Source of the DNA: Telopea speciosissima
Taxonomy: Eukaryota; Streptophyta; Magnoliopsida; Proteales; Proteaceae
Length of the DNA: 64,000 nt
NCBI RefSeq assembly: GCF_018873765.1
Contig: NC_057924.1
Coordinates: forward strand, 19,339,542-19,403,541
Direction: 5' to 3'
The notes below the pieces were generated by a model that was not told the DNA's origin, searched no databases, and worked only from the letters and a program-made list of their open reading frames with translations. A program made the position numbers and the translations under genes. Below, one piece after another: positions 9,615-40,739 of the stretch. Within the stretch, counting starts at the first letter, position 1; each line of letters starts with the position of its first letter.

Positions 9615-10856
9615 TCATTTTAAATGATAAGAGTTGATGTTACCTTCAACCTGAGCAAGGTTACCTGGTTATTTACGATATTAGGATTGAGAATTGACAA
9701 AACAAATTCTGCAGCCTAGTTGACGTATATTTTGGCTTTAATTAAAATAAATTGAAAATCATAGATTACAAATGAACCTTATTTTGTGTGCTGTATAAAA
9801 CGATGCCATAAAGGCAAAAGTATTTACCAATTTTTTGTTTTTTTGGGATCACTCAAAAGCAATTATGGTTATAAGAAAATTCTAAAGTTTTCCTAGATCA
9901 GCCCTCTTGGAGAGGTTTATAAGTGGACCACCTATTTCTGCTATGTGGAGGGAGGATTTGGCAATTCAAATTGTTGTATATCAAGGGAATAATTTGGATT
10001 TTTCATGTGTTAATCTTCATAGGACATAATTTTTCTCCACCCACAGTGAATGGGTGGGGGCCGGAGAGGACAGGTGAGGGTATCAGGAAGGTATTTTGGG
10101 AATATACTAAAATCCTAATAGGGGTTTGTGAACCCTAGGATGGTGGGGGAACCGTCCTCTATGGGTGAAAGAAAACTTTCTCTACTTTCATATATGTCCA
10201 TGAATTCTTATATTATCATATGATTTTGTTCTCTGTCACTATCCCTAGTGAAGTATAACGCTTCACTATTTACCACATGACAATACATGGATTAGCACAT
10301 GTCATATAGGACCAAACAAGCACTTCATTGGTATAATTCCAACTTAAAATGAATTGAGGGGTAACTAAAATTACAAAAGATGCCATTTTGCTTCATCGTT
10401 CTTATATTTAGGCTATGCTTGTTCTGGTATATAAAATGTTTGACAGTAGAATAGAGTTGGGGAAAACTGTCACTCTGCCATTGTGCACACAATAGTAGTT
10501 TTGGTGGAAAGCAATCCACAGAAAATGGTGGATGGGCACCTAAATCTGCCACATGACATATCAGGTGAAGTTGAAATTTTATGAACAAGTAAAACACAAG
10601 GTCCCTTGTACACATTGCAAGTTTTAACTCGATCAGAGCTGACCACCCGACAAAACAAAACATGGAAAAACATAAGACTACCAAGAGGCTCACCAATTGG
10701 CAACGGCTGCATGAACATAAATGTGAAAGTATGCCATTAGAAGAGAGGATAAATAATTAAATTTGAGGCTGAAACTGAAACATGACCAATTTTGACCATA
10801 TTCTAAACATCTAACAATCATAATTGTCAAACCATTTAAAAACATGCTTATGTAAT
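9615..10856. other. Intergenic, nothing recognised
   Basis: AT-rich sequence with only short chance ORFs on both strands. I see no domain, RNA gene or clear repeat structure here. Confidence 0.6.
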
Positions 10857-12145
10857 TGTTGGTTCCCACTTTCAGCCAAGAGTAGGCCAAGAAACGTGGC
10901 TGAAACGTGAGAAGGGCGGTTGAGATAAAAGTGCATAGTAGTTGGTTATTGGAAAGGGGCCCACCCTATTAGGAAGCAATCTGAAAAGTAGGAGATGCAA
11001 TACTGGGAATTACTTCACGAAGGGGTCATGTGCAAAATCAGGGACACGTAGCACTAGAACAAGGGGATTGTAGATACATGAGTGCGGTGGTTATGGCAAC
11101 TACCAATGGGAGCCTTTATGGGATCCATTTATAAAAGGCAGAAGTCTCCATTAAAGAAAGGACACCCAATCAACAACACAACACTCTATTATCTTTATTT
11201 CTTTTTTTTTGTTTTATCTTTCAAGATGTAGTCTTTCATCTTTCCTTGTAATTTTTGCTGGAATTGGCTTCCAGCCACCGATGTCTCATTGGCTTCTAGC
11301 CACCGATGTCTCATTGGCTTCTAGCCACCGTGTCTCATTGGCTCGTGTTTCAAGGGGCATTCAAGTAGGTCTTGCTTGGAGAATAACTCCAGCAAACTTG
11401 CCTTTTGGCCCCTGTTTCAGAAGGCAACCATCATCATCAAGTTGCAAACTTCATCAGTCCGTGGTTGACAGAATTGCAGAGGCTTCATCAGATCCGTTTT
11501 TAGGAGATGCTTGGAGAATAACTCCAGCAATCTTGTCTTTTGGCCTGTGTTTCAGAAGACGACCATTAACATCAAGTTGCAAGCTCTATCAATCCATGGC
11601 TGGTAGAGTTGTGGAAGCTTCATCAAATCCGTTTTTGGGGTATGCGATTTGGTCGTAGGATAGTTGTAGTGTAAATACCAAGTTGTAAACCTCATCAATG
11701 TTAGATTTTGCAAGTTGTACTGACTCCAATCGGATACAGACTGCAAGTAAGCAACTTTGATTTTCAATCTCCTTCCTTTGCTTCGTCCATCCCAATTTCC
11801 TTTCACTCAGAAGACCTTAAAGCTACTCAGGCACGAAAAGATCGCTTTTTCGTCCTAGTTAGAAGTCAGAACAGGCCACTTAGAACATACCGTTTCGTCA
11901 GTTAGAACAGGCCATTTCGGCCTGGCTGGAAGTTAGAACAAGTCGTTTCATCCTGGCTGAGCAGGCTTTTTCATCTTAGAACAGGCCGTTTAGTCATTTA
12001 GAACAGACTGTTTCATCTTGGTCGAAAGTTGGAACATGCCGTTTCCAGTTTCGTTTGGGCCTGCGTTAAAGGCTCTGGCACGCCCGCACTACCTTCACCA
12101 CGTGCGTTGTGCCCCTTTGTGTAGGTGTTGGATTTTTCACCAACA
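10857..12145 (+). mobile_element. LTR 'A' of non-autonomous LTR element, subtype I (5' LTR)
   Basis: The LTR starts TGTTGGTTCCC and ends TTCACCAACA, giving TG...CA termini. It is followed at once by a primer-site-like stretch (ttttggcacgcccgatggga, 12149-12168), so it is a 5' LTR in + orientation. A TATA box (TATAAAA, 11130-11136) lies ~270 bp in, with the U3 upstream. Downstream are two tandem 135-bp units (from 11375 and 11510, each starting cttggagaataactcc) and an array of ~20-35-bp units related to agaacaggccgtttcg (11868-12050). The left target-site duplication is gtaat (10852-10856). Its U3 matches LTR C, not the neighbouring LTR B. Confidence 0.88.
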
Positions 12146-13883
12146 CATTTTGGCACGCCCGATGGGACTCCAGAAAGCAAAATCGTGATGGTTCAAGGAA
12201 GAAGAAATGCCGATAAAGGGAATCCTTTCCCAAATCAGGCAGTGAGAATGTGCTCAACTAGGGGCAATTCTCGCTATCAATGAACACTGAGAGGCCGTAG
12301 CCCATCGGCAAGGGGCACGGTTTACGTCCAACAGAATTTGGGTGGTTCGAGGAGGAAGGTACATCACCAAGCAAGGGGCAAGTCTTTCTGTTGATGCTGT
12401 GATAATCCATCATGCCTGCGATTAAGGCCGAGATAATCCACTGGCATCGGGTGATCTGTCGTGCTTCACCTACCTTCCTAAATCGAAGTTGATTCTCACA
12501 TTCCTGATGTAAGCAGCATTGATTTCTCTTTTTAAAATTTTGTTTCGCCAATGATGCCATCAGAGAGTCAAAATAAAGTCGGACCGAAGTTTCCATTGGA
12601 TGTGAAATCAAGAGCCAGAGGATCTTCACCGTTTCATGGCACCAAGCCACGGAGTCATGGTCCTTCATTTCTATTTCTAGCGGTGTAAAGTGTGCGTCAT
12701 ATCGATCGACTCGGTATTCAGTTTGCAAAAAAAAAAAAAAAAGAGGCGACAGCGGAAATCTGCTGCATAGCCACTTTTTTTTGCAAGAGAGTCGGCTGTT
12801 ACAAAAAAAAAAAAAAAAAAAGAAGAGAAAAATGGGAAATCTGAGGTATACTCAGAGCAAGAGGCCGATTTACTCGGCTCAGTGGAGTACGAGACATGGG
12901 TAGTTGAAGATAAATTTGGTTTTCTCTCTTCCTTCCATCATTAGAAAGAGAGTAAGGGACACGTGTCCTCCATCAGATTCTCTCTCATCTCCCCATTATC
13001 TCTCTCTCTCCCCTCTCACATGCTTTCCACGATTTCCATTTATCTCTTCTAAAATTTCTCTTTTCTCTCTCATCCCCCCATTATCTCTCTCTCTCTCTTC
13101 TCCCACATGCTTTCCACCACCTTTCCCTAAATTACCTCTAATTCCCTCTACATGCCACATCTCACGGCTTTTCCTTCTAAACAAAAAAAAGGAGGTAGCA
13201 AGAGGCCAATTTACTTGGCTCAGTGGAGTATGAGACGTGGGTAATTAAAGATAAATCAGACTCTCTCTCTATTCCTTCCATCATTAGAAAGAGAGTATGA
13301 GACACATGTCTTCCTTCATTTCTCTCTCATCTCCCCATTATCCCACCTGCTAAATTCCACTTCCATCTCGTATACTCTCATAACTAGATGCCGATTTGTT
13401 CGGCGAAGAAGAGTCCTTAGCGATCGTTGGAAGGTGGTAGCCGCATGATTTATTTTCCGTTCCAGTGGCTTGGTGCTGGCAGGCACATGATTTCTTGAGG
13501 AGATTACCCCTTTTGTTGGATGTGTTCGAGGGGCAAATCCTGCGACTTAGTGACGATGTGCCGATGAAGGAACCCATTCCTGAATCAGGCAAACCAGGGT
13601 TAGCAATTCCCTTTACAGAGATCCTCGCCAATAAAAGAGCCATTTATTTTCCCAACCAGACTGGTTTTATTTTGGCGAAATCCATAAGTTGGTTTCAAGC
13701 ACAGCTGAAAATGCTTAAGCTATGCCTACAGAGCTACAGATGCAGGTTCAGTTGGAATGGATTTGGAACAATCTGTTCCAAGCATGGAAGAATTCGCAAA
13801 GGCCGAACTGGAGACTATAAAAACATGTCGACAATCCCATTCGAACTCGTGTGGCCTCGTTCAAACAGGATTGTGAGGGGCAT
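12146..13883 (+). mobile_element. Internal region of the first non-autonomous LTR element
   Basis: This 1.74-kb stretch between a PBS-like site and a purine-rich tract (gattgtgaggggca, 13870-13883) has no recognisable gag, protease, RT or integrase, so the element is of the LARD type. It contains an imperfect 341-bp direct repeat (copies from 12860 and 13201, both with tggctcagtggagta or a close variant), CT-rich blocks repeating ctctctcatctccccattat, and poly(A) runs. An open frame at 13465-13929 has no family I recognise. Short blocks match the internal region at 32804-34660 in inverse orientation (ccctctacatgccac versus ccctccacatgccac). Confidence 0.75.
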
Positions 13884-15166
13884 TATTTGCACCCAATCAC
13901 AAATTGGGATTCGGTTATACGTGCCATAAGGTCGTGCATCGCACGCTGCCATCAAAGAGATCCCATTTTAAATTTGATTTAACCAAGTGGAAAGGTGGGA
14001 TCCGCCATGACTATAGATGTTGGGAGGTTACAAACCCCAGATGGCCACATGGCACAGGAGATTAGCATTTTGGAGTGAAAGTGGCCCTAATACAAGGAAG
14101 CAAGTGGAAGTGGTGGTTTTGGGAGTTACCAAGTGAATATCTTCTATATAAGACAAAGCCAAGCAAAAAGAAAGGACATCACCCAACGGATCAACAAAAA
14201 CACTCTAGTTTTTATCTTTACTTTATCCTTTTCTTTTTATCTTTCAGGATGTAATCTTTCATCCTGCTCTGTAATTTTTGCTGGAGTTGGGTTCCAGCCA
14301 CCAATGCCTCATTGGCTTGTGTTTCAAGGGGCATTCATGTAGGTCTTGCTTGGAGAATAACTCCAGCACCCATGTCTTTTGGCCCGTGTTTCAGAAGACA
14401 ACCATCATCATTGAGTTGCGAACTTCATTAGTCCGTGGCTGGCAGAGTTGTGGAAGCTTCATCAAGATCTTTTTTGGGAGATGCTTGGAGAACAACTCCA
14501 ACAATCTTGTCTTTTGGCCAGTGTTTCAAAAGGCGACCATTAACATCAAGTTGCAAACTCCATCAATCCATGGCTGGCAGAGTTGTAAAGCTTCATCAAA
14601 TCCATTTCTGTGAGATTATGCGATTTGGTCGTAGAGTAGTTCTACTGTAAATGGGCCGTTTCATCTTAGAATAGGCCGTTAAAGTAGTTGTACTGTAAAC
14701 ATCAGGTTGTAAATCTCTTCAATGTCAGATTTCATAAGTTGTAATGACTCCAATCGGATATTGACTGCAAACAAGCAATTTGATCTTCAATCTTCTTCCT
14801 TTGCTTTGTCCATTGCGATTTGCTTTTACCCAAAAGACCTTAGAGCTACTCAGGCACGGAAGGATCCCCTTCTCGTCCTGGTTAGAAGTCAGAACGGGCC
14901 ATTTTCGGCCTCTCAGAATAGGCCCGTTTAGCCAGTCAGAACAGGTCATTTCGGCCTGGCTGGAAGTTAGAACAGGTTGTTTCGTCATTTAGAACAGGCC
15001 GTTTCGTCCCGATCAGAAGGTAGAACAGACCGTTTCGTTCTGGTTGAAAGCCCGGACAGGCTGTTTCCAGTTCCGTTTGGGCCTGCATCAAAGGCTTTGG
15101 CACGCCCGCGCTACCTCCACCAGGGCGTTGTACCCCTGTGTGTAGGTGTTGGATTTTTCACCAACA
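13884..15166 (+). mobile_element. LTR 'B', subtype II (3' LTR)
   Basis: This LTR is preceded by the purine tract and starts TATTTGCACCC, with TA where TG is expected. It ends TTCACCAACA. The TATA box is TATATAAG at 14145-14152. From the transcription start onward it resembles LTR A, including tandem cttggagaa units and the agaacaggccgtttcg array (14890-15070), but the first ~270 bp are unrelated to A and match LTR D. The flanking duplication on the right is ctttc (15167-15171), the exact complement of the gaaag beside LTR D. Confidence 0.88.
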
Positions 15167-15171
15167 CTTTC

Positions 15172-16250
15172 TCCTTAACTTTAAAGGTTTTGAGAGATTC
15201 TTTATGCTTTCACTTGCTATTATACCTTTCTAGAGGTTATTTTATTTCTCTCACTTTCAAAATGTTGTTACCTTGTGCATTGTATACAAGAAGAGTCACT
15301 TGGTGACTGTTGAAGATCTGTAGTTATCCAAAGGAAATTAAACTACAGGTTGTAAGGATTTCTCTACTTTCAAACTCATTTTTCTTTTGACCCTTCTTAT
15401 CATTTGATAACTGATAGTAACCATAGAATTCAACAATCTTGGTGAACCCAAAATCTATTTTTTTTTTTTAAATTCTTTTAAAGCCTTCTTTTTTAAGTGG
15501 AAAAACAAAACATTGGCATTATTGATTGATGGGTTCTTGAGTTTCCCTTGGCTCCCTTCCTTCCTCCCTCCCTATATCCCGCCCACAACCCTTTTGTCTC
15601 CTTCCTTCATTACTAAATTCCTCATGCAACCCTTTTTCATCATTTCATCCATACTGCAATCCATCTTCCCCTTCTAAAAAGTTATGGAGGATGCACTTTT
15701 TAAGAGCTTGACTATGAGAAGTAAAAAGAAGGAAAAAAAAGAGCCATTAGTCTAAAAGGTGACAAACATTTGGAGCTGGATTCTACTTCGGTGGGTTAGC
15801 CTCAAATTCCAAGCTAGTGTGGATTTCTCCAAGATGTTGAAGCAGGGGGTCTTAGCCTTTTCCTGTAGCGGATATTACAGATGTTGCTTGTTTCCCTCCC
15901 CTTGTGAGGGATAAAAATCTGGTTAGGTGCATGCAAACTGATGGTGTATCCTCTTCTTCTGGGAAGGTTAATTGACTCTATGGAGGGGAGCCATGTATTG
16001 AAAAGGGACATCAGAAGTAGATCCTATGCAGGTGGAACTTGATAGTGAAAACGTTGAATGGTGTTCCCGACCCTCCTTTAATGAATGTGCCTCTTGTTAT
16101 TGGTGAAGCCTGATTTCGATCCAGAAAGTGCAGTTGGGATCTTCGGAGGGCCATTTCAGCCTCGAAACGACCTTGAATTGTCAAAAAATGGTGTACATCA
16201 AAGCCATGGGCGGTGAGTTGTGTTGGGCTCGACGAGATCTTTGAAACAAT
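15172..16250. other. Intergenic, nothing recognised
   Basis: AT-rich and pyrimidine-rich sequence without recognisable genes. Open frames on the minus strand near 15814-16514 show no family resemblance and overlap the LTR-like segment that follows. Confidence 0.5.
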
Positions 16251-16557
16251 GTATTTTGGGATATATGTTATGTTTTGGTCCGACCCTGTCCGGTTTGACA
16301 TTTTTGGGTCTGGGGGCATTTCTGTACTTTCTTGAGTTAGGGCTTCTCTATATAAGGTTCTTATCTTTGGGAGAGCTGTAAGAGAGATTTTGTAACATTT
16401 CCAAAAGATAGTGAAATTTGTTCTATTGCTTGGTCGTGGACGTAGCTTCCCATCTTGGGGGTGAACCACGTAAATCTCTAGTGTTGTGCGTTGTGTGCTT
16501 TCTCTGTTTCTCATTTTTCTTCTGCAAATTGTTATTCTGGGCGCTATTTTCTTAACA
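16250..16557 (+). mobile_element. Copia-type LTR fragment (R-U5 part)
   Basis: A TATA box (TATATAAG, 16349-16356) is followed by sequence typical of plant copia LTR leaders: agctgtaagagagattttgt, tattgcttggtcgtggacgt and gtgaaccacgtaaatctct. It ends in TTCTTAACA at 16557. I could not find a matching TG start or partner LTR, so this is a fragment or a degraded solo LTR. Confidence 0.55.
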
Positions 16558-16589
16558 CCTCTTTCTTCTTTTGGTCCTAGCTCTTAAAG

Positions 16590-17760: not shown

Positions 17761-17763
17761 TAA

Positions 17764-19062: not shown

Positions 19063-19094
<32 letters not shown>

Positions 19095-20619: not shown

Positions 20620-20639
20620 ACGACCTAAGCCATTTATTT

Positions 20640-21010: not shown

Positions 21011-21109
21011 TTCGATAAGAAAAAACGAAGAATTTTATGTCAACGAAACACTTACATCTAAACTATAGGTCCATGCTTTATCTGTCAATCATCAATTCAA
21101 TTCAATTCA

Positions 21110-21492
21110 ACTCTTCAAGGGGAAGCTCTAGCAATTCACACAGCTTTATCCAAGGCACTATCATTGGGGATCCTTCATCTTCAAGCGGAATCCGATAATA
21201 GAAAACCTATTATGTTTCTTCAAGGGGCTAATCAATTATCCCCCTCTTTGGAGTCAGCAGTTGTTCTCAAGGATGCAAAGCTTCTTTGTCTTTATTTTGC
21301 TTCAATTTTTTTTTTGATGTATTCCAAGGAGTCGGTTAGCGGACACCCTGACAAGGAGGGCTCTATCTACCAATCATGTGTATTACAAATTTACCTATTT
21401 GCACTCCTTGACTTCATAGGTTATTTTCTAATGAAGTTATTGGCTCATCACATGTTTATCAATAAAGCTTCATTTTACCCAAAAAAAAAAAA
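21110..21492 (+). mobile_element. LINE 3' fragment with RNase H remnant and poly(A) tail
   Basis: The + strand encodes EALAIHTALSKALSLGILHL followed by QAESDNRK and KDAKLLCLYFASI, the RNase H-like C-terminal domain of plant L1-type LINE ORF2. It then runs through a non-coding tail with aataaag to A12 at 21481-21492. This is a 5'-truncated dead copy; the 5' edge is uncertain. Confidence 0.75.
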
Positions 21493-21549
21493 TTTGTTTG
21501 AGACTTTGAAAGTCTAGAACCATTAAGGAACTATTGCACTTTTTTTTTT

Positions 21550-23159
21550 GGGTAATTTACACATACCCCCCTGAGGTTTAACGAAAGGATATTTTCAACC
21601 CCCTGACGTTTGCAAATGGTAACAGATAGGTCCATTCCGTCAGTTCATGACTAACACTGTTAAAAAATAGACTTGAACTGACGGAATTGCTCTTACACAA
21701 TTTTTTTTTAAAAAAAAAAACACCTGCAGCTCATCTTCCCCAAACGACTTTGGGGAAGATGAGTTGTAGGTTTCAAAACCCTTTCAACCCTTACTGAAAT
21801 TAGGGAAAATTTTCAAATCCACTCCACCTGCAACTCATCTTCCTAAGAGGAATCTCATCAGGAATGAAGTGAAGTCATGAAAAAAGAGAGAATTTAACAA
21901 CTTCAAGATTGCCATGCTTGACACAAAAATCAAAACAGATAGAAGTAGGCCAATGTCAGATTAAGAAATAGAAGAACCTTTCCAGAAATTAGAGATTAAG
22001 AAATAGAAGAACCTTTCTTCTTCTTCCTCGATGAAAGACCAGGCGGTAGCTCCAAACCTCGAAGAGAAGAACTCCATGCTATGAGGTTCACTCGAGCAGA
22101 AATTCTGGATTCAAGTACTAAAAGCCATCTCTATTGGAACCAGCCAACAAACTCGAGGTTCAGCAACCTAAAAAATCAAGGGGTTAATTTGACAGGAAGC
22201 AGCACCTGGCGGAAGATAAAGAAGAAACGGTCGCCATTAGCTATAAGGTTTTCTAAGCAGAGGATTTAAGAAGGTCAATCGAAGCGATCATAGAGATTTC
22301 AGAATTTGGAAAATCCAAAGCAAAGATTGCATTTTTTGTCCCTTTTCCTTTCAATTTGTGGGAGAAAGAGAACAGAAGAGAGCCCAAAAAACCAAGGAAG
22401 ACTTATCCTTTTTATGAAATTCGAGATTCCTGCAAATATTGAAAAACCACTTAGCTAGTAAAAATTTACAGTGTCAGATCTCCAGTGATGCTGCCCTTTT
22501 TGCCCGTTAAAAGATCTCGACTTTACAGTTCTTGGCTCAGATCTCTGCTTCCGAATGGAATGGGACTTACGGTTTGTATCGAAGGATACAGACAAACCGT
22601 TAAGGACCCACTTTTTGTGAAGGGAAAATATCTTCTCCCAAGGGATCTGATCCTCTGGAATGGAGAATGACATTTTTTATTTTTGGTGAAGAGGGAGAAA
22701 GATATTTCAGACGATGATCTTGAATCCAGGATAGAACGACTGCTTAAATAGTAGGTGGCGATGGTGGAGCAGCAATTCGATTAGGTTTTAGAAGAAGAAG
22801 GAGAAGAGGTAATGAAGGGGTGAAGAGATTCAATTCATTTATTTAGTTTTGGATGCTCCCAATTTTAATGGTTTTTTCCTTGAATCAGTGCATCAACACA
22901 GCAAAACCTGCAAATCATCTTCCCCAAAATCGATTGGGGAAGATGAGTTGCAGGTGTTTTTTTTGTTTTTTTTTTAAAATTTTTGTGTAAAGGCAATTCC
23001 GTCAGTTCAAGTCTATTTTTTAACAGTGTTAGTCATGAACTGACGGAATGGACCTATTTGTTACCATTTGCAAACGTCAGGAGGGTACGCAGAATTTTCC
23101 AAACCTGGGGATTGAAAATATCCTTTCAGTAAACCTCAAGGGATATGTGTAAATTACCC
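21550..23159. mobile_element. Mutator-like element with long TIRs, non-autonomous
   Basis: The ends GGGTAATTTACACATACCCC and the complement of the right end (GGGTAATTTACACATATCCC) open terminal inverted repeats of roughly 170-240 bp. These carry tccattccgtcagttcatga and, inside, hairpins such as catcttccccaaacgacttt with its complement. The element sits in a poly(T) tract, and a 9-bp T duplication is compatible with a Mutator-type insertion. The ~1.1-kb interior shows no transposase. It holds a small duplicated block (gattaagaaatagaagaacc, near 21960 and 21994) and a 32-bp hairpin near 22569-22600. Capture of a host gene fragment is possible but unproven. Confidence 0.75.
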
Positions 23160-23347
23160 TTTTTTTTTTTTTGATTACTTCATAATTATAAAGAAAAAAC
23201 ACACAGATTTGAATGTTTGTGACTTTGAATGTTTAGAACCATTGAGAATTGAAGCAGAAGCATTTCATTAATAAATGAGATCGGATCCATATTTTGGGAG
23301 GTTCAGATTTTGAGATTGACCAATTTAGATGGATGGGGTTCCTTTGT

Positions 23348-24029: not shown

Positions 24030-27000
24030 ATGGTGCTTCCTCTGGTGAAGCTCGGGACCCTCGCCCTGAAGACACTGTGCAAACCAATAGCCGGTAGGCT
24101 TAAGAAAGAGGCCGGATTGCATCCCAGGTTCCGCCAGTTGATTATCAACTTTGCCCAGGTCCTTTGCTCCTCATTTTTATTCATTTATAGTTATTTTACT
24201 TCTTATCTATTGCTGGTTAGCGTCCCTAATTTGCTTAAGTCATTTTACAATTTATTAAGATGATGTTTATTAATCTATTATCTGGGTTTAGGTTAGTTTT
24301 ATGCCTTCAGTGTTGATTATGCGGCTATGCTATCGCAGCCCATTTTGTATTCTATTGCCCTCTTATTTGTTGAGTTTAATTGACATAGATCAGAGGTTGC
24401 TAGGACCAGTGATTCATTGATCATCGGTCAGATAAATTTCTATGAGCTTTTGCTGAATTTTAACAGTCGTTCGTACTGATCTGGAATTTCTTGTGCGATC
24501 ACAAACAAGCTACGGGTTCTATGAGTTTCGGGTACTTCAGTGAATTTGTAGGGGATAATTGAATGATTACTAGTTTCGTTTACCATATTCTGGCTGTAGT
24601 TTTACCATTTGGGCCGTTGTTCTTCTGTTATAGTTCTTGCCCCTCTCTCTTAATTTGCTTCCATCCTCAATATCAAACCCAAGCATGGCCTCTTTAAGTC
24701 TTTATGCCATTGCCTTACATGTTGCCCTGGAAATTATGGTTGTAATTACCACTTCGGTAAAATAACAGATGGATGATATTTTTTAAACTTAGAAAAGAAT
24801 GCAGACTTGTGCATCTCGTGAAAATTTTGGAACTGTACTAAAGTAGGTAGGTATGATGATTTCAATTTGGTGGGGGGGGGGGGGGGAGGCACATGTGAGA
24901 CACAAACAATCAGTTGAGTTCCTATGCACCAACTCAACTCAACTCAGCAAGGTCCCTTCCCAATTACTTGTGTCAGCTACAAGATTTTTGGTTCGGTTCC
25001 CATTAACCAAACTGAATAAAATTTCACTCAAGAAGACAAATCCTTTCCTGACTATTAGGGTCAGCTCTATCAATTTAGTTTCACTAGTTCATAAAATGAG
25101 AAAAATGTAAATAGTTGTAACAATGTTTGCACACCTTTTTTTTTTTTTTTATCTATGTAATAGTTGAAAACATGAAACATATGTTCACAAGTTTTGACTA
25201 GGTAGAAGCATGAGTGTCGTCCCAAAACTAATTACACAACACCGTGTAATCCAACCAAATTTTGAAAAATAGACTGCTCTTGTTACGGTTGTCCTTTCTT
25301 CTCAATTTATGTCTTTTACTAATTTTGATCATAAATAACTGACACCTCCAACACATGCTCTGTACTACTTATATATCCTGAAATTTAGTCATTATTATTA
25401 GGAGTATAAATATGGTAGTTCTAATATTTTTGCCCTAATACATCTGTTGGAATCAGGCTAATCATCGGTTCCAAACAAACGTCCAAAGGCGCATCTATGG
25501 TCATGCAACTGATGTTGCAATCCGCCCTTTGAATGAGGAGAAAGCTGTTCAAGCTGCTGCTGATCTTCTTGGGGAACTATTTGTGTTTTCGGTAGGCTTC
25601 CTTCCCCAGTATTCTTTTTAGGTTACCTGTAAAAGAAAATATTACATAAATTAAAATGCTCTGGTGTACTTATTTTGATTCCTAAATGGTAGTTCATAAA
25701 TGCATTTGCTTTTATGTATAATATTGTATTAGTTCATAAATGCATTTTCTTTTGTGTATAAAATTGTGTTTTCAGTATGAAGTGAGCTTTGATGATCCTA
25801 ACAATCTGGTTGCTGCCAATGATGTTTGTTGAAGTATATCGAGCTCCTAGAAGGAGGAAGAATCTCAATTAGAATATTCCCTTATTCTAGTCAGGATTCC
25901 CCTCCTCCTTAGGAATCTCTCTCCTATTTTGTGTTTATGTTTTAGTTATATTTTCCTAGTCCTAGTTGGAGTCTCTAATTCTAGTTTCCTAGTTTAGTTC
26001 TAAGTTCTTTTCTATTTTCCTACGTGATTTGGAGTGCTAATCTGATTAGGAGTTAGTCCTAATATGATTAGGCGTTCTCCTTTAATGTAACAGTTGAGTA
26101 TAAATAGATAGGAGCTTGATATACTTCAACAATATTCTTGATGGAAGATAAGAGATATGTATGGATGATTAATATACACATATAAAATGTGTATCCCTGG
26201 AAAATATTTTAGGATGCTGGATCCTTAAGTACAAAATGCCTGGGGGATGATGGTTTCTTATTGTCCATATGTCAATATTCACTTTTCTGTGTGTTTCTTA
26301 GACAACGTGATTCTCATTTTTTTTAATACTCAACTGATGTTCCACTATGTGCGCTCATTCATTTAGGTTGCGGGAGCCGCTGTGATCTTTGAGGTGCAAA
26401 GAAGTTCAAGATCAGAAGCTAGAAAGGAGGAACTACGCAAGCAGGAACTAGAGGTAATATTTCAAGATTCTCATTAGGTTTATTTCACTGAAATTTCCCT
26501 CTTTTTATCTCAAACATCCTATAGATTTTTTCCTCTTTTAAGCTTACCTGCATGATGCTGAAGTCTGGCCCTTGCAATCTCATGCTTTCACCAAAACCAA
26601 AAAAAAAATTGTAACTTCCCTAAATTGTGTAGACAACAAATAAATAAATAAATTCCAATCTAAAGAATTTCAAACCTCGAAGTTGTTAAGTATAAATTCT
26701 TGAGTTACAGCAATGTGCTGTACTGCAGGGGTACTTTGTCTTATTTGCTTCTTATTTTAGAGTTATGTGTAAATACACTTATGTTGGGGGGGGGGGGGGG
26801 TTTCTTGTAATTGCACCTATTATATCTTTTAAATAAAAGGATAGTGCTACCAGTAGGGATTATAACTCTTTTCTCCCTATCGGATAGCTATTCTCTTCTC
26901 TCTTCTCCATCTTCTTCTCCTATATAATACTGCTGGTTGTATTTGATTTGTTTCCATTACATGGTATCTGCGATCCCTGGTATGTGCGAGGGGTTTTGAG

Positions 27001-28858
27001 TGTTGTACCCCTTGGTGCCACGAGATGCTGTCACGTGCAGAGCAGTGTGTGTGTGGGGGCCTGCACTTGCATGCAGTGTTGTCGTTTTGATATACGTTGT
27101 TGTAGTCCTTACCTAACAGCCCGAGCTTTGGGATAAGCAGTAGTAATAGAAGTATTACTTCTCTCTTCCGCAAACCTCTCTTCGTGTCACCTTCTTCTCA
27201 ATTTCTTCCTTTATTAAGCAATATCTTCTGTTTTATTCTTAAAATATCATTTTAACTGCTTGAAGCATGTTTCAATGCTTATGTTATTGAAATTTTATTT
27301 TCTTAGATGATAAATATATCAATTATTAATTTATTTTTCAGCATGCCATTCTTTTTTCTTTTTCTCTTTCCCTCCTTCGCTTCTCCCCCCCCCCCCCCCC
27401 CCCCCCCCACCCCCACCCCCACCCCCACCCCCAACAATTTCTTTCCTGTACCTACAAAACAAGATCCTGTTTACATCCTTTTTTCCTATGGGTTATTAAA
27501 AGAACAGAGAAGGGTCAAGGCGTGGAAGGAGGATCCCGGAAGCAGAGGCCACCAATAACTACATGAAATTGAATGATGAACAACACGGGCAATGCGACCT
27601 GCAAAACAATTCAGTTTAAACACACCTTACTTGGCAAGAGAGTCTGCTAAGTTTTTCCATGACTCTCATCTTTGTAAACTTATTCCATAGTACTAAGTTT
27701 CTTTTCCAACTCTGATTCTCTAGACATAATGTGCAGCATTCACCATTCCCTCCAAGCCTAGATACTAGACAAGAATTAGGCATCCTGATTTAATTAATCA
27801 ATTGCCTATTTTAGTTTCTTGCAGTTCTCTCAAGAAACTAAAGATTCCATAAACACCTCAAACTAGAGACAGACACAAATATAGATTGTTATACCATATA
27901 ACAGAGGCATCTATCTATCCATCTTCTCCTCCCAGATGCTGATTCTATCTTCTGCATCCCACCTGAACCCACCCACCCACCATATGCAATGGATTGGGAT
28001 AACCTAGGAAGGAAGAGTCTAGCGCTCTTCAAAGGCCGGACTGGGGTTACCCTGTAGGCTATGTTGGAAGTTCAATGATGCTCCATATCTAACACAAATA
28101 TGACATTATACCAAGACTCTTGGTTTAACAGGGGAATCTGCAGAGTCAAGTTTGACAGAAGCACTACATGTCTCATGGAGATATCCTAAGCCTAGACCAG
28201 TTCTTGTATCTACATACCATAACCTGATTGACAGTTGAGAAAGTTGTTTTTGGAAGGTTAAATCTAATGTTTTGCTGATATGGCATATAGTGCAGCACGC
28301 ATCAGATCACTTGAATGACAGTCAATTTAGCATAGATAAGACATGAGGTTGGAATAAATTCTGTCATTGGTGGGGCTAAAAAAGGTCATTTTATTGCTTT
28401 ATTCTACCAAGTTACATTCCACTCCGCTTTTCCTTTTCTGTTTCCTTTCTTACTAATAATTTGATTCCTGGACTTTCGTAGCTAACATAGGCCCTCTAAT
28501 GCTTTTAGGGCTCCACCATTTGTGACTTGTATTTTCTCCTTAAGAGTTACTTGCATTTCCTTTGTATAAAGTATTAAAGTAGATAGAGACAGAGATCCTG
28601 TCACTTGTAACTGTTAAGCTTTGAAGTTAAGCACACTGTATTCCTTCACCTGAACACTTGTAGGTTAAGCATACTAATTATTTCTCTCACTGTCAGGCAT
28701 TTAAGCAGAAGGATGAAGAGTTGGCTAGGGAAGTTGAACTTCTGAAGCATAGACTAGAAGAGCTGGAGCGTCTTGCAAGGGGACGAGGACTGAGTGGTCT
28801 TTTCAACTTGAAGCATCCTCAGACCACTGAAGATGTAAAGTCAGCGACACCTCACTAA
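24030..28858 (+). CDS. OPA3: OPA3-like mitochondrial protein
   Basis: Four exons: 24030-24158, 25457-25591, 26367-26453 and 28697-28858. All introns are GT-AG in phase 0, giving 170 aa plus stop. The protein starts MVLPLVKLGTLALKTLCKPI, then KEAGLHPRFRQLIINFAQAN, the RRIYGHAT block, IRPLNEEKAVQAAADLLGEL, and the hydrophobic stretch FVFSVAGAAVIFEV (about residues 84-97). A long charged coiled coil (about 104-147, EARKEELRKQELE... to EELERL) precedes RGRGLSGLFNL. This is the full OPA3 family layout and length. OPA3 proteins are mitochondrial membrane proteins needed for normal mitochondrial morphology and lipid metabolism in animals; the plant role is largely unknown. The start is the first ATG of the conserved N-terminus. 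Intron 2 holds a solo LTR; intron 3 carries G- and C-rich tracts. The whole gene lies inside the proposed inversion. Confidence 0.95.
24872..24886. repeat. G15 tract in OPA3-like intron 1
   Basis: Fifteen consecutive G residues on the sense strand of the 1298-bp first intron (24159-25456). I see nothing else recognisable in this intron. Confidence 0.8.
25776..25836 (+). other. Exon-like segment in OPA3-like intron 2
   Basis: After a good acceptor (gtgttttcag, ending 25775) the sequence reads open in the phase of exon 2 as YEVSFDDPNNLVAANDV, then Cys and a stop. The last codons run into the first bases of the solo LTR. It could be an alternative exon giving a truncated product or nonsense-mediated decay, or simply chance. 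I do not recognise the peptide. Confidence 0.3.
25827..26131. mobile_element. Solo LTR in OPA3-like intron 2
   Basis: A 305-bp unit starts TGTTGAAGTATATC and ends GATATACTTCAACA, so the TG...CA ends form a 14-bp perfect inverted repeat. It is flanked by atgtt (25822-25826) and atatt (26132-26136), a 5-bp target duplication with one difference. A TATA-like run, gtataaatagat, lies near 26097. No internal region is present. It resembles copia LTRs in ends and size. Confidence 0.75.
26780..26985 (+). mobile_element. Possible degraded copia LTR/PBS junction in intron 3
   Basis: G15 (26786-26800) is followed by leader-like sequence with tatataatactgctgg (~26919) and ttccattacatggtatctgc (~26956). 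The latter resembles an LTR end followed by an initiator-tRNA primer site (TGGTATC...). Only the first seven bases of the primer site fit, so this is tentative. Confidence 0.3.
27385..27432. repeat. C24 tract followed by (ACCCCC)4
   Basis: Twenty-four C residues are followed by four ACCCCC hexamers in OPA3-like intron 3; the minus strand is therefore G24 plus GGGGGT repeats. Such a tract can form quadruplex or i-motif structures and is often mis-assembled. The rest of intron 3 (26454-28696) shows no gene. Confidence 0.85.
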
Positions 28859-30754: not shown

Positions 30755-30763
30755 TTCATTTTA

Positions 30764-31534
30764 TTACCATTGGTTGGGGAAAAGTGTCTATGTGGTGGTG
30801 GGGGGGGGGTTGTTTCTTTTCTTTTCGGTTGGTACTATTCCTCTACCTGGTTGATGGATGTAGTTATCTCTTCTTTTAGTGTTTTTTTCTCATTTTATCT
30901 TCCATTTTGTTTTTCTGATGACTAAGGGTCCTCCAAGGCATACCGCATCCTTAATTGTGTTGAACTGTGCTCTGTTTGTTTTCATGTAAAAAGGTGGGAA
31001 AGGAAAATCTTCCTGTAAAGATTTTTTACTGTTTGTTTTAATGTATAAATAAAAAAAAAGGTATTGAAAGTAGGATAACGTTTTCCTTCACTTATGGTCA
31101 CCATTGGTGATGTTATGCTCTAATTGGACTCGACTCTGGGCTCATCATTGACTTTCACCCTCTATTATATGAGGTCAAAAATACCATTCCTCAATTTAAT
31201 CTGGTCAGATCTTATGGTTTCGTAAACTAGGTCCTTGAAATTGAAGGAAAAATTTAGTCAAATTGCTCCACATATAGTTCCTTAAACTGCATTTTCGAAA
31301 CAAACCAAAGGCAATTCCAATTGATCTTGTAAGAGATCCGCTATAAAATGAATACGTTTATTTTTCAAGAGATTCATATCATCAAGTGTACCCATTCGAA
31401 ATTTCATTCCAATATAAAATCCGCAACTACCAATATATCTCGCAATAACAAAAATATTTTAGATAAAGAAATTTTTTTATTTAAAATATCATTTGCATGA
31501 AAATTTTTAACAAACAGGGCAGGAGCTCGGTTAC
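30764..31534. other. Intergenic, nothing recognised
   Basis: AT-rich sequence to the edge of the next LTR; 31530-31534 (gttac) is the target duplication of LTR C. No gene seen. Confidence 0.5.
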
Positions 31535-32803: not shown

Positions 32804-34660
32804 ATGCCCCTCACAATCCCATTTGAACGAGGCCACACGAGTTCGAGTGGGATTGTGGATATGCCTTTATAGCCTTGCGTTCGGTCTCAATGGAGATGAG
32901 GGTGAACCAGCCTTGAGGTGGTCCCACTCGAAGTCCCACTTGAATAATCATTTTCGGTCTCAAACTCTCAATGGAGATGAGAATGAACCAGCCTCGAGGC
33001 GGTCCCACTTGAAGTCCCACTAATAAATGCATTCACTTTATAATCCTCAAGGTCCTTTTCAAGAAACAAACTAGCCTTGTACGTCACAGAGTCCACCATG
33101 AATGGTAACGTAAGTGATTCAGGGCTGGGTTCCTTCAACAGATTATCAACATTTGCCCCTTCTTCAAGAACAGTTTAAATAACTTGCCCTCGCTTGAATG
33201 AGATATAATACCTTGGCATAAGGTATAGCAACCGTTGCCAACCAGGGGCAGCAACCACACTCAGGCGCAACTCACGCTTGCAGCGGCTCGCTTGCTTCTC
33301 TCTCCCATCGTTTTTCTTCGATTTCTTCTCCATGGTATCTGTGGCCGCTACCTTTTAATTCTATAAAAAATGACTTTTCAACCATGTTCCAAATGGGTGA
33401 TCTCCTCCATGATTCTTTCCTGCAGTCCCTGAAATGGCGGTCTTTGAGTCCCTCTCATGATCATCGTTTCACAAGAAAATAACTGTCTCACGTAGAAGAC
33501 GTCGAAATCTCCAGATCCAATGAATGAGATTTTGTCATAGATGACTGGAGTGTGATATGGCATGCCACGTAAAGCACACTTAAAAGACATTGTGAGGAGC
33601 CATGCCTCTTCTCTTAAGAGAGAAAATAAAGATATATTTATCACTCCACGTATGCCCATTAAAAAAAAGCTAATAGGCTCCTACAAAAGAGAGAGAGATT
33701 TTAGGGGTGAGGGAGTTTAGGAACAATGGGAGTTGTGGGTGGCATGTGGAGGGAATTAGAAGGAGATAATTTAGGGAGAGAGATGGGAGAGAGAAACGTA
33801 GGAAAGTTGGTGGTTTAAGAAAAAATGGAGATAATGGTGGCGGTTAAGGAGTAAGTGAGTAGGGCTTAGGAGAGTGGGATGCAATCATGGTGGTTTATAC
33901 CAAACATTTGAAGCATGCAAGCACACGTTTCATGTATGGGATATTGAAATAACCACTTTCCCACTTAAGCTGCCCAACCAATGGCAAATTGAATATTGAT
34001 TTATTGTTACGGCAGTAAAAATGGAGGAAACGGCCTTTGCACAGCTCCGAGGTCGGTGCCGTTATAGCTGTAGGCACAATGAATCCATGTTCCGTCATCG
34101 AAAACAAATTCAATTGTACGGCACGTGTCACACATAGTCTCCTTAAACGACTCTATTTACCTTTGCTCTTGATCGATCAAAAGTGTTTGGGCTGGCCAAA
34201 ACAAGACTTAACCCAAGGTAGGGTTCGGTTCATTGTTATCTTGATCGGTCAGCTTGACCGAAAATAATAATCCATGATCGGTCCCCCTTTTTTTTTTTTT
34301 TTCTTTTCTTTTACAGCCCACTCTCTTGCAGAAGAAAGTGGCTATGCAGTAGATTTTTGCCGCCCTTGCCCCTTGCTTGGTGTCGAGTAATGGCCGAAGA
34401 ATAAACTGTTGGCCATTCAAAACACCAACGACAGGACTAGTAAATAAACCGTGCCCTTGGTTAGTCAATATTGACCCATATCCGATGAGTGACAACTTCT
34501 CAATGCTCGTTTACGAAGGGATTTGCCCCTTGTTGAGCACCTGCGATGCACAATTTGCAAAATTTGCCCCTTGTTGAGCATCTGCATTGTCGGCATACTT
34601 TCTTCTTCCTTGAACCATCGCGATTTTGCTTTCTGGAGTGCCACCGGGAGTGCCAAAATG
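32804..34660 (-). mobile_element. Internal region of the second non-autonomous LTR element
   Basis: This region has no gag or pol. Its right end on the minus strand carries cattttggcactcccggtgg, the counterpart of the primer-site region after LTR A. Its left end is the purine tract and a ggcctcgttcaaatgggatt flank shared with the sequence before LTR B. Short direct repeats (ttgcccctttgttgagca type, 34527 and 34563) and purine-rich blocks occur. The minus-strand block ccctccacatgccac matches the internal region of the first element, so the two interiors are homologous and opposite. No host gene recognised. Confidence 0.7.
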
Positions 34661-34904
34661 TGTTGGTGGAAAATCCAACACCTACACATAGGGGCACAAC
34701 GCCCGTGGTGGAGGTAGTGCGCGCGTGCCAGAGCCTTTGACGCAGGCCCCAACGGAACTGGAAACGGCCTGTTCGGGCTTCCAACCAAGATGAAACGATC
34801 CATTCTACCTTCTGATCGGGACAAAACAGCCTATTCTAAATGACGAAACGACCTGTTCTAACTTCCAGCCAGGCCGAAACGGCCTATTTTGAGAGGCCAA
34901 AAAC
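34661..34904 (-). mobile_element. LTR 'D', subtype II, U5 part (5' LTR, interrupted)
   Basis: On the plus strand it begins TGTTGGTGGAAAATCC, the complement of an LTR end, next to the primer-site region at 34633-34660. It carries several gaaacggcctgttc-type units and is cut at 34904 by a copia element; the LTR resumes at 39713. The target-site copies of the insertion are aaaac (34900-34904) and gaaac (39713-39717). Confidence 0.88.
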
Positions 34905-36198
34905 TGTAAATTTACCTAGAGGCGGGGTGAATAGGTGAAGCTAGTGGAAATAGTGCGGAAATAAAACAATTGATAAAATAAAGCAAATAAATTATGAAAG
35001 TAACACAATCATTTTATAGTGGTTCGGCCAATACTTGCCTACGTCCACTCCTCTCACCTTAGAGAGAATTCCACTAAAAATAAATCTTAAGTATGAGTAA
35101 GAGAACTCGTACAAATCTTGATTAAGAGCAAGAGAACTCAACTAATCTTGATTAAGAGTAAGATGACTCAACTAATCTTGATTCCGAGCAAGAGGACTCA
35201 AACTACCATTTAAAATAAAAGGTACTAAAGATTAGAGTTACCTCAACTTTAGTAGTGTTTGTTACCTTTCAACTTGAAGCTTAATGCTAAGTGTAATAAA
35301 GGAGCTAGTGAGGGAATGTGCTTGAATGCTTGATGAAGAATGCACACTTCAATGCTTTGGATGATCAAGTAGTAATGCCTTTTGATGCCTTTGATTAGCT
35401 TTTATTAATTGTGTTTAGCTTAATTAAACTTACCTATTTATAGGCAAAGGTGCTTAAAGCATCCAAGAATCATTGCTAATTTCGGATACAAATTTGTCCT
35501 AATCCGGTATGCCGTTTTCCAATTCGGTATGCAGGATCATGATTCGGTATGCCGGATCATGATTCAGAGCATTCCGTTTGTTCTCTGTAAGCAAAACCCT
35601 GAGATTGTGTTTTGCAGGAAAAATGGAATTCAGCATGCCGGATCTGGATTCGGTATGCCGAATCAGCTGTTTTGCTGAACAAGTGTAAGTTTTTGGTTGG
35701 ACTGACTTGGGTCGATTCCATTGGACAAGTCTGGGCCAATTTCTTTGGTTTTAGTCCATGTGGGAAGAGTCTAAAACAACCTCCTAGGGTCACACTACAT
35801 GTATGTATGCGTGAGTGTGTGCGATACATTGGTTGTGACTTTAACACATGATTTAACAACATAGCACAATTCTAAGTCTTCAATCTTCTTCAAGTCTTGA
35901 ACTTCACTTCTTTACATGAATGTCTTCAAAGTGAGTTCCTTTAACTTGTCTTGATCTTTGTCTTTAAAACTTGTTCTTCATTCTTCATGATTCTTTGATG
36001 TCTTGAAAGATTGGACAAGGTTCAATTTACTTTGAACATCAATCTCTTGAATTGAGTGTTCCCCCTCACTTGGTGCTATGCTCTTATCTAAACATCTTAA
36101 ACAAGAGTTAGTACAATTCATTTTATTTGTTATCATCAAAACATATATATCATCATGATAGATGATTGGAGTTTATGTATGAGGACTTTTCCTCAATA
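34905..36198 (-). repeat. 3' LTR of the copia element
   Basis: This is a direct repeat of 38281-39712; both start tgtaaatt(t/c)acctagagg on the plus strand. Its inner end reads ctcaata where the 5' LTR ends ctcaaca, so on the minus strand it starts TA instead of TG. Contains repeated agcaagagaactca-type units (35088-35210) and the words ggtatgccggatcatgattc. Confidence 0.9.
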
Positions 36199-36436
36199 AT
36201 CTCCCCATTTTTTATGATGACAAATATTGACCGAAAATAATGCAATATTTAAGAAATGTATAACATTAATTGTATAATAAGTTCAAAGAGAAAACTACAA
36301 TTTTTTCTCCCCATTTCTCTCTCCCTTTGGCATTATCAAAAAGCGGGGATAGAAAGAAAAAAAAAACTTAACAAAATTTTGATCCCCATTGTGTGTTGGG
36401 TCCATCAATGTTAGTATCATACATTTCTTTTGATTT

Positions 36437-38216
36437 TCAAACCTTTTGGTTACCATACCAATTTGGGTATGATTGGGGGTTCCAAGGTCTTTGGTATTGG
36501 GGTACCTTATATAGTCTTTGAATTTTGGGAGGGTCTCTCCGATATTCACCATAATAAGGTCTTTTAGGTTTGTAATACGCTTGATTCGTATTCTTTGATC
36601 CCATGTACTGATTTCTCCATCGAGTATCATGACAATCCCAAATTGAATGTCCCTTTTTGTTGCAATTATTGCATATAACAATTTGAGGGGTATTTGGACT
36701 TTGAGTCTCCCCTTTGGGATTGGGTTTCTTAGCTTGAGGACTTTTCTTCTTGGAATAGCATTCCTTAAGAGAATGTCCCTTCTTTCTGCAGTAGTTACTA
36801 TTTATTTTTCTTAGCTCCCTTACTTGCTATCTTACTTGAATTTGACTTTTGAGTTTGATTTGAACTCTTGTTCACATCATAGCCTAGCCCTTCCTTGTTG
36901 AAAGGTGTTTTGGATGAAAATCCAAGTAAAATATCAAGATTATTTTTACCATTAGTAAAAGATTCTAAGTCTTTACACAACTTCTCTTTTTCTTCTTCTA
37001 AGTTGTTAACTTGAGAAGTTAGAGTTGTGTTTTGGTCTTTGAAGGTATTTATCTCTTTTAAGAGATTCTTTTTAGTAGTAGCTAATTTCATGCTACTTTG
37101 GTAGAGGTCTTCAAAGGCTTCTTCTAATTCTAGAAAATCCTTATCCTTATGAGATGGAGAAGTGGGACTTACCTCATTTTGAGTGTCTTCATCTTCAATA
37201 GACATAAAAGCAAGATTGATTTGTTCTTCTTCATCTTGAGATATTTCATCATCCTCTTCTTCATCGCTTGAATCAAGAGTGTGTTCAGTTTTGTATACTT
37301 TTTTGTGTGGACAATCTTCCCTATAGTGTCTTGGTTTCTTACACTCATAGCAAACAATGTTTTTTGAAGAAGAATTATTTTCTTTAAAAATATTCTTACC
37401 TTTTTGGTCTCTTGAGAGTTTCCTCTTGTTGACTGAGGTTTTGCCTTTGTTCTTCAAGAACTTTGAGAACTTCTTTGTGAGATATTCGATCTCGTCCTCC
37501 GAAAGTTCTTCTTCATCATCACTTATTTCATAGGACTTGAAAGCCACGACTTTCTTCTTTGGTTCCTTTGGCTCATCTTCCTTGGTGTCTAATTTGAGCT
37601 CCATTTCATGAGTCTGCAGTGATCCCAAAAGCTCATCTAGGCTTAGCTTGTCTATGTCTTTGTACTCTTTAATTGTCGTAGTCTTGGGTCTCCACTCTTT
37701 TGAAAGGGATCTCAATATTTTTCGAACATTTTCTCCATTAGAGTAGACTTTTTCTAAACCCTTCAGCTTGTTCACAATATTAGTAAAACGAGTAAACATT
37801 GTATAGATATCTTCATCATTTTTCATTTCAAACAGTTCATACTCGTTTACAAGCATATCAATTTTAGATTGTTTAACTTCAGACGTACCTTCATAGGTAA
37901 CAACTAACTTGTCAAACATCTCCTTTGCGGAGTCATACATACAAGTTCTATTATACTTTTTTTCTCCTAGAGCACATTGAATATAGCTTATAGCTACAAA
38001 ATTGAGTTGTATCTTTCTTTTTTCAGCAGGGGTCCATTCTTCTTTGGGCTTGTCTATGGTATTAGGTCCATTCTTTATAACTTTCCATGTGTCAATGTTA
38101 TTGGCACACACGAAGTTCTTGAAGCATTTTTTTTAATAGGAGAATTCTTCACCTTCAAAGAAGGGAGGTCTAGTAATGGTGTCTCCCTCAATCTTTCGAT
38201 TGCTAAAGGATCCCAT
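36437..38216 (-). pseudogene. Copia Gag polyprotein (UBN2 plus CCHC zinc knuckles), disabled
   Basis: The likely start is the ATG at 38214-38216 (MGSFSNRKIEG). An in-frame TAA at 38133-38135 replaces a codon that is Trp in the family, then the frame stays open from about 38130 to a stop near 36798. The UBN2 gag domain comes first (KEMFDKLVVTYEG, IYTMFTRFTNIVNKL, SLDELLGSLQTHEMEL). A zinc knuckle follows (CYECKKPRHYREDC, CX2CX4HX4C). Next is an acidic spacer, then a coiled coil (ELEEAFEDLYQSSMKL onward). After a one-base frameshift near 36797 comes CNNCNKKGHSIWDC, a second CX2CX4HX4C knuckle, ending around 36437. It would package element RNA in virus-like particles; this copy cannot make full-length Gag. 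Confidence 0.85.
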
Positions 38217-38266
38217 GGTCTTTAACTTTTAATTGGATTGAAAAACAATCACGGTCTTGAGCTCCT

Positions 38267-38278
38267 GCTCTGATACCA
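38267..38278 (-). promoter_or_regulatory. Primer binding site of the copia element
   Basis: The minus strand reads TGGTATCAGAGC two bases inside the 5' LTR. This is the standard copia site for priming minus-strand DNA synthesis from the 3' end of initiator methionine tRNA. Confidence 0.9.
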
Positions 38279-38280
38279 AA

Positions 38281-39712
38281 TGTAAATTCACCTAGAGGGG
38301 GGGTGAATAGGTGAAGCTAGTGGAAATAGTGCGAAAATAAAACAATTGATAAAACAAAGCAAATAAAATGCGAAAGTAACACAATAGTTTTATAGTGGTT
38401 CGGTCAATACTTGCCTACGTCCACTCCTCTCACCTCAGAGAGAATTCCACTAAAAACAAATCTTGAGTATGAGCAAGAGAACTCGTATAAATCTTGATTA
38501 AGAGTAAAAGAACTCAACTAATCTTGATTAAGAGCAAGAGGACTCAACTACTCTTGATTGAGAGCAAGAGGACTCACACAACCAATCTTGATTCCGAGCA
38601 AGAGGACTCAAACTACTATTTAAAATAAACGGTACTAAAGATTAGAGTTACCTCAACTTTAGTAGTGTTTGCTACCTTTCAACTTGAAGCTTAATGCCAA
38701 GTGTGATGAAGGAGCTAGTGAGGGAATGTGCTTGAATGCTTGATGAAGAATGCACACTTCAATGCTTTGGATGATTAAGTAGTAATGTCTTTTGATGCCT
38801 TTGATTAGCTTTTATTAATTGTGTTTAGTTTAATTAAGCTTACCTATTTATAGGTAAAGGTGCTTAAAGCATCCAAGAATCATTGCTAATTTCGGATACA
38901 AATATGTCCTGATCTGGTATGCCATTTTCCAATTCGGTATGCCGGATCAAGGAATCTATCCGTTGACCAACGGCTAATTCATAATGGTCAAAAGCCAATT
39001 CGGTATGCAGGATCATGATTCGGTATGCTGGATTGTGATTCGGTATGTCGGATCATGATTTAGAGCATTCTGTTTACTCTTTGTGAGCAAAACCCTGAGA
39101 TTGTGTTTTGTAGGAAAAATGGAATTCAGCATGCTGGATCTGGATTCGGTATGTCGGATCTGGATTCGATATGTCGAATCAGCTGTTTTGCTGAACAAGT
39201 GTAAGTCCTTGGTTGGACTGACTTGGGTTGATTCCATTGGACAAGTCCGCCAATTTCTTTGGTTTAAGTTCATCTGGGAAGAGTCTAAAATAACCTCCTA
39301 GGGTCACACTACATGTATGTATGCGTGAGTGTGTGCGATACATTGATTGTGACTTTAACACATGATTTAACAACATAGCACAATTCTAAGTCTTCAATCT
39401 TCTTCAAGTTTTGAACTTCACTTTTTTACATGAATGTCTTCAAAATGAGTTCCTCTAACTTGTCTTGATCTTTGTCTTTAAAACTTGTTCTTCATTCTTC
39501 ATGATTCTTTGATGTCTTGAAGGATTGGACAAGGTTCAATTTACTTTGAGCATCAATCTCTTGAATTGAGTGCTCCCCCTCACTTGGTGCTATGCTCTTA
39601 TCTAAACATCTTAAACAAGAGTTAGTACAATTCGATTTATTTGTTGTCATCAAAATATATATATCATCATGATAGATGATTGGAGTTTATGTATGAGGAC
39701 TTTTTCTCAACA
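38281..39712 (-). repeat. 5' LTR of the copia element
   Basis: On the minus strand it starts TGTTGAGAAAAAG and ends GGTGAATTTACA, next to the primer site. It is 138 bp longer than the 3' LTR, mainly from an extra block with repeated ggtatgccggatc-like words near 38935-39060 and an extra agcaagaggactca unit near 38535-38580. Confidence 0.9.
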
Positions 39713-40734
39713 GAAACGGCCCGTTCTGACTTCTAACCAGGACGAGAAGGGGATCATTCCGTGCCTGAGTAGCTCTAAGGTCTTTTGGATTAAAGCAAAT
39801 CGCGATGGACAAAGCAAAGGAAGAAGATTGAAGATCAAATTGGTTACTTGCAGTCAATATCTGATTGGAGTCATTACAACTTACGAATCCGACATTGATG
39901 AGATTTACAACTTGACGTTTACAGTACAACTACTTTAACGGCCTGTTCTAAGATGAAACAGCCCGTTTACAGTAGAACTACTCTACGATCAAATCACATA
40001 ATCTCACAGAAATGGATTTGATGAAGCATCACAACTCTGTTAGCCATGGATTGATGGAGCTTGCAACTTGATGTTAATGGTCGCCTTCTGAAACACGGGC
40101 CAAAAGACAAGATTGTTGGAGTTGTTCTCCAAGCATCTCCCAAAAACGGGTCTTGATGAAGCTTCCACAACTCTGCCAGCCACGGACTGATGAAGTTCGC
40201 AACTCAATGATGATGGTTGTCTTCTGAAACACGGGCCAAAAGACATGGGTGCTGGAGTTATTCTCCAAGCAAGACCTACATGAATGCCCTTCGAAACATA
40301 AGCCAATGAGGCATTGGTGGTTGGAACCCAACTCCAGCAAAAATTACAGAGCAGGATGAAAGATTACATCTTGAAAGATAAAAAGGAAAGGATAAAGTTA
40401 AGATAAAAACTAGAGTGTTTTTGTTGATCCGTTGGATGATGTCCTTTTTTTTTGCTTGGCTTGGTCTTAAATAGAAGATATTCACTTGGTAACTCCCATA
40501 ACCACCACTTCCACCTGCTTCCTTGTATTGGGGCCACTTTCACTCCAAAGTGCTAATCTCTTGTGCCATGTGACTATGTGGGGTTTGTAACCTCCCACCA
40601 TCTATAGTCATGACGGGTCCCACCTTTCCACTTGGTTAAATCAAATTTAAAATGGGATCTCTTTGATGGCAACGTGCAATGCACGGCCTTATGGCACGTA
40701 TAACGGAATCCCAATTTGTGATTGGGTGCAAACA
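39713..40734 (-). mobile_element. LTR 'D', subtype II, remainder with U3
   Basis: The continuation of the interrupted LTR. On the minus strand its beginning reads TGTTTGCACCCAATCACAAA, with the U3 and leader matching LTR B (attgagttgcgaacttcat, gcacccatgtcttttggccc). The outer flank is gaaag (40735-40739), the exact complement of ctttc beside LTR B. A TATA-like run (minus ctatttaagac) lies near 40467. Together with 34661-34904 the LTR is about 1.26 kb. Confidence 0.88.
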
Positions 40735-40739
40735 GAAAG

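Follow-up and report, generated by a model that had tools for sequence, protein, structure and literature searches.

How did two neighboring long terminal repeat (LTR) retrotransposons come to be bounded by LTRs and target-site flanks that do not belong together? The question is raised by a 64,000-nucleotide stretch of the genome of the waratah Telopea speciosissima (contig NC_057924.1, positions 19,339,542–19,403,541; hereafter the window), in which LTRs A and B bound one apparent element (A-B) on the forward strand, and LTRs D and C bound another (D-C) on the reverse strand. The original prediction was that an inversion of ~20 kb, with a breakpoint in the interior of each apparent element, had exchanged the halves of two elements and reoriented an OPA3-like gene. 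The LTR tree and the flanks support this prediction, and an intrachromosomal inversion of ~19 to 23 kb, occurring after both elements had inserted and with one breakpoint per interior, is very probable. All four LTRs were found again at the coordinates first proposed for them (Table 1), and no fifth LTR copy was found in the window. LTR D was found to have its predicted outer bounds but not to be continuous, as it is interrupted by a nested Copia-type element.

The four LTRs pair across the apparent elements, A with C and B with D, as had been anticipated. A four-way alignment spanning LTR positions 1 to ~1020, up to the interruption of D, contains 197 informative sites. The AC|BD grouping is supported by 194 of these, AB|CD by two, and AD|BC by one. 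From position 313 of LTR A on, a region labeled R-U5 (repeat and unique 5′; the label does not come from mapped transcript ends), the corresponding counts are 55, 1, and 0, so the pairing extends beyond the unique 3′ (U3) region. In this same region, AC|BD was recovered in 1000 of 1000 bootstrap draws, and an IQ-TREE analysis of positions 313–1015 gave it a Shimodaira-Hasegawa-like approximate likelihood ratio (SH-aLRT) value of 100; a tree joining A to B and C to D was not obtained. Sites supporting AC|BD reach ~position 1017 and reappear at window positions 12067, 12095, and 12103, such that the last 104 bp of the LTR has three sites for AC|BD and none for either other grouping, the final one being 12103. 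The Kimura two-parameter (K2P) distance is 0.073 ± 0.008 between A and C, and 0.072 ± 0.008 between B and D. Each apparent element is chimeric, with its two LTRs belonging to different subtypes.

The 5-bp target flanks follow the same crossed pattern. When compared in element orientation, the flanks of A and C match at four of five positions (GTAAT and GTAAC), and those of D and B match at all five (CTTTC in both; gaaag beside D as read on the forward strand). The apparent elements were predicted to lack matching flanks of their own, and only one of five positions matches between A and B, and two of five between D and C. Among 200,000 random pairs of 5-mers drawn from the window, 0.14% matched at all five positions (0.0014) and 1.8% at exactly four, with a frequency of 0.020 for at least four. 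Comparison of the window with itself revealed no match between the outer flanks on the A and C sides or between those on the B and D sides, a weak result in that such a comparison could reveal a split host feature only if it had repeated or inverted parts.

A newly inserted LTR retrotransposon has a pair of identical LTRs flanked by copies of a single target sequence. A-B and D-C break this rule while A-C and D-B obey it, and a single inversion converts the latter arrangement into the former. We propose that two copies of one non-autonomous LTR retrotransposon family having two U3 subtypes, E1 (bounded by A and C) and E2 (bounded by D and B), would have inserted ~20 kb apart and in opposite orientation, each generating its own 5-bp target duplication; the LTR pairing and the flanks support this step. 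An intrachromosomal exchange between the interiors of E1 and E2 would then have inverted the intervening DNA, leaving two chimeras, A-B and D-C, both of which combine an LTR and a target copy of E1 with an LTR and a target copy of E2. The OPA3-like gene would have been carried along unbroken and its strand changed, as follows from the geometry. This one event is supported as an account of the four LTR types, their orientations, the positions of the leader and of the stretch resembling a polypurine tract (PPT), and the flanks. Comparison within the window places two homologous copies in opposite orientation, one at each breakpoint. As a target is duplicated when an element inserts, it follows that today's order is derived.

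Once the LTRs are sorted as A-C and D-B, TG..CA LTR ends and a 5-bp target duplication hold for both elements, with the exceptions that the 3′ LTRs of E1 and E2 both begin with TA and that one target duplication matches at four of five positions. No Pfam domain was detected in the 12 interior open reading frames (ORFs) scanned, namely two in interior 1 and, of the 11 in interior 2 with 60 amino acids or more, 10. That gag-pol domains were not found in the scanned ORFs of both interiors fits a non-autonomous LTR retrotransposon, as predicted. The lack of Pfam domains in these ORFs, the TG..CA LTRs, the leader, the PPT-like stretch, and the 5-bp duplications are like those of the large retrotransposon derivatives (LARD) and terminal-repeat retrotransposons in miniature (TRIM) of plants. 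A 31-base leader pattern had no matches in viral_contigs or genome_contigs, which say little here as collections of viral and prokaryotic sequence.

As a separate observation, the 5′ LTR begins with TGTT and the 3′ LTR with TATT in all three of the elements E1, E2, and the nested element. This G/A difference may have arisen by decay in parallel, or from some property of the PPT/U3 junction.

Where within the interiors did the exchange occur? The interiors had been predicted to be homologous, and this held in patches at both ends, while the middle is only weakly similar. The 5′ patch covers ~171 nucleotides at 71% identity with gaps, and its first 61 nucleotides are ~93% identical (counted by eye). 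A second patch covers 88 nucleotides at 82% (12741–12825 with 34374–34286), and further similarity consists of weak CT-rich matches. Both ends score well above shuffled sequence (185.5 vs. 62.5, and 122 vs. 28), and the patches are collinear and occur once each in both interiors. Only two copies of the family entered the comparison for mosaic signal in the interiors. The best candidate tract for a homologous crossover appears to be 12104–12207 with 34702–34599, which is identical at 98 of 104 positions, gapless, spans the LTR end and the leader, and comes right after the last diagnostic site. Six differences are close to the number that either element has accumulated between its two LTRs since inserting, and so the patch may have been nearly identical at the time of exchange. 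As the last AC|BD site lies at 12103, the exchange was probably 3′ of this position, outside the LTR body. LTR A is a disfavored site of exchange upstream of its final 42 bp, though one tandem-repeat stretch cannot be read.

Several observations weigh against the inversion as drawn. The target duplication of E1 is imperfect. The last ~243 bp of the LTR, which is rich in tandem repeats, has raw counts of 6, 5, and 2 for AC|BD, AB|CD, and AD|BC over 13 sites and is unusable, and the B-D K2P distance there is 0.139, as compared with 0.0575 before it. In the interiors, the 3′ patch before U3 has 86% identity over 87 nucleotides, and the longest common exact run is 25 bp (20 letter-shuffled pairs peak at 9 to 13). 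The similarity of the interior middle is weak, with a local score of 136 that none of 100 shuffles reaches (mean 84.9, maximum 117.5). The raised B-D divergence was considered as a sign of mosaicism and rejected, as the differences are rich in transitions (26 to 4); it was also discounted on the grounds that A-C identity is low in parts of the same repeat zone, where two blocks of 100 columns show 84.8% and 91.3%. The low similarity of the interiors bears on the joining mechanism and not on the geometry.

Within the inversion reading, homologous crossover is likelier than end joining as the mechanism. The exchange would most likely have been ectopic recombination through a short homologous patch, for which the 98/104 tract is the best candidate. 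The same inversion could have come about if two breaks, one per interior, were joined non-homologously or through microhomology, or if replication switched templates. The interiors lack a near-identical tract longer than ~100 bp and the longer LTR homology was apparently unused, as end joining would have it, but the patches keep their order and occur once each, as an exchange at equivalent positions predicts, and the 98/104 patch is present. We judge such joining unlikely, this estimate being a share of the mechanism step inside the inversion reading. It is a tentative possibility that the inversion bypassed the long LTR homology and used a leader patch of ~100 bp, diverging by then, or only microhomology. 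An exchange within the 5′ LTRs A and D, where homology is longer than in any interior tract, might be thought to explain the five AB|CD sites among 13 in the tandem-repeat stretch. This mixed stretch, however, aligns unlike repeat units, AC|BD sites run to ~position 1017 and account for all three sites in the last 104 bp, and AB|CD sites are absent from those 104 bp. The informative-site counts disfavor a crossover in the 5′ LTR bodies, which we consider highly improbable.

Other explanations dispense with the inversion. The real chromosome might contain intact A..C and D..B elements, with the assembler having flipped the segment between inverted repeats; the inverted copies are indeed ~20 kb apart, and LTRs B and D match exactly over up to 100 bp. 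Against this, the false joins would have to fall in the interiors, whose longest exact inverted match is the 25-bp run (an argument rather than a test), and the window contains no N. An assembly artifact seems improbable. Hybrid elements with mismatched flanks are known from recombination between elements, and A-B and D-C could have formed as two independent hybrids by exchange with copies elsewhere or by LTR gene conversion, their flanks matching by chance. This explanation is extremely improbable, since one pair of loci shows reciprocal pairing of LTRs as well as of flanks, and a chance origin of the flank matches is disfavored (~0.0014 x 0.02 from random 5-mers).

The nested element in LTR D bears on timing. 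Its LTRs are ~1.3 and 1.4 kb in length and differ by a K2P distance of 0.054 ± 0.007, its flanks match at four of five positions, and it has a sequence resembling a primer-binding site, TGGTATCAGAGC, which we take to be of the initiator methionine (iMet) type. The order of the K2P distances (A-C and B-D above the nested pair) is the order required by nesting. The host elements E1 and E2 are approximately equal in age, and the nested element looks younger. The inversion is younger than both E1 and E2.

The inverted segment contains the OPA3-like gene. All 170 residues of the protein spliced from it agree with those of an OPA3-like record from Telopea speciosissima, and the gene thus looks intact; the next match is a second Telopea protein at 85% (from a listing of the top 120 among 1034 hits). 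The geometry of the inversion implies that this gene once lay on the minus strand and pointed toward the RTN4IP1-like gene, a plus-strand gene outside the inversion, and the convergent arrangement in the original prediction follows. Five ORFs of the RTN4IP1-like gene were scanned: ADH_N and ADH_zinc_N_2 scored above cut-off in one ORF each, ADH_zinc_N scored below cut-off, and the first ORF had no match. The best of two PDB matches to its last exon is 2vn8, reticulon-4-interacting protein 1 (E 0.00048). Between exons of this gene is a 169-bp tandem duplication (5660–5997, 98.8% identical).

Other features were noted inside and outside the inverted segment. Inside it are a reverse-transcriptase-like RVT_3 match (21062–21517; 25 bits, cut-off 21.6) and an imperfect inverted repeat (21550–23159, with arms at 21550–21773 and 22904–23159) that is possibly a small DNA element. 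A single-ORF core histone gene (PF00125), H3-like by eye, lies just outside the inversion (42373–42885). Farther along are LINE-like (long interspersed nuclear element) remains on the plus strand (48568–52238), with zf-RVT above and RVT_1 below cut-off and no Pfam match in the ORF at 48568–49680, and an O-methyltransferase-like exon (58349–59224; PF00891 and PF08100).

Table 1. Coordinates, in the window, of the crossed elements, their flanks, and the two genes.
Feature	Coordinates	Strand	Remarks
RTN4IP1-like gene	1087–9266	+	Outside inversion; start set by eye, exons mapped in part
E1 5′ target copy GTAAT	10852–10856	+	4/5 match to 3′ flank of C
LTR A, 5′ LTR of original E1	10857–12145	+	Pairs with C
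Interior 1, leader side from E1 and PPT side from E2	12146–13883	+	Holds breakpoint, interval 12104–13883
LTR B, 3′ LTR of original E2	13884–15166	+	Pairs with D
E2 3′ target copy CTTTC	15167–15171	+	5/5 match to 5′ flank of D
OPA3-like gene, four coding exons (spliced by eye)	24030–28858	+	PF07047; start and stop confirmed; inside inverted segment
E1 3′ target copy GTAAC	31530–31534	-	Beyond C
LTR C, 3′ LTR of original E1	32803–31535	-	Pairs with A
Interior 2, leader side from E2 and PPT side from E1	32804–34660	-	Holds breakpoint, interval 32804 to ~34702
LTR D, 5′ LTR of original E2	40734–34661	-	Interrupted at 34905–39712 by nested LTR element
LTR D, 3′ piece	34661–34904	-	
Nested Copia-type element	34905–39712	-	gag ORF (PF14223), LTR pair, flanks AAAAC/GAAAC
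LTR D, 5′ piece	39713–40734	-	Alignment starts at 39714
E2 5′ target copy CTTTC	40735–40739	-	Beyond D
TGTT/TATT LTR start sites	10857, 13884, 32803, 40734, 39712, 36198		G/A difference at LTR position 2

The waratah case is a clean example of an already known type of event. Hughes and Coffin reportedly inferred provirus-mediated rearrangements in primates in 2001 from mismatched LTR pairs and flanks. The logic of LTR phylogeny and target duplications is reportedly the same for those animal proviruses, whereas here both reciprocal products are seen within one window.

In Drosophila buzzatii, inversion 2z3 was generated by Galileo, with target duplications exchanged at the breakpoints (PMC2775673). 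In both cases, each breakpoint carries a copy of one family, the two copies lie in opposite orientation, their target duplications have been exchanged, and both are chimeric. Galileo differs in being a DNA transposon of the P superfamily with 7-bp duplications; the waratah elements are LTR retrotransposons whose duplications are of 5 bp, and their inversion, in a plant, is of ~20 kb. The switch in 2z3 was placed within 141 bp through the use of other copies, while the waratah comparison has two copies only, and non-inverted chromosomes were sequenced for Galileo, whereas the waratah inversion is read from the sequence of one chromosome.

That one chromosome yields both the event and its direction, and no outgroup is needed to read the ancestral order, given that a target is duplicated when an element inserts. 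A test combining the LTR quartet with crossed flanks could find and polarize small inversions across plant genomes. At this locus, the OPA3-like gene acquired a new strand and new neighbors without being broken. If short leader homology or microhomology was indeed what the inversion used, then old and patchily similar pairs of non-autonomous elements could still flip gene-bearing segments in plants.

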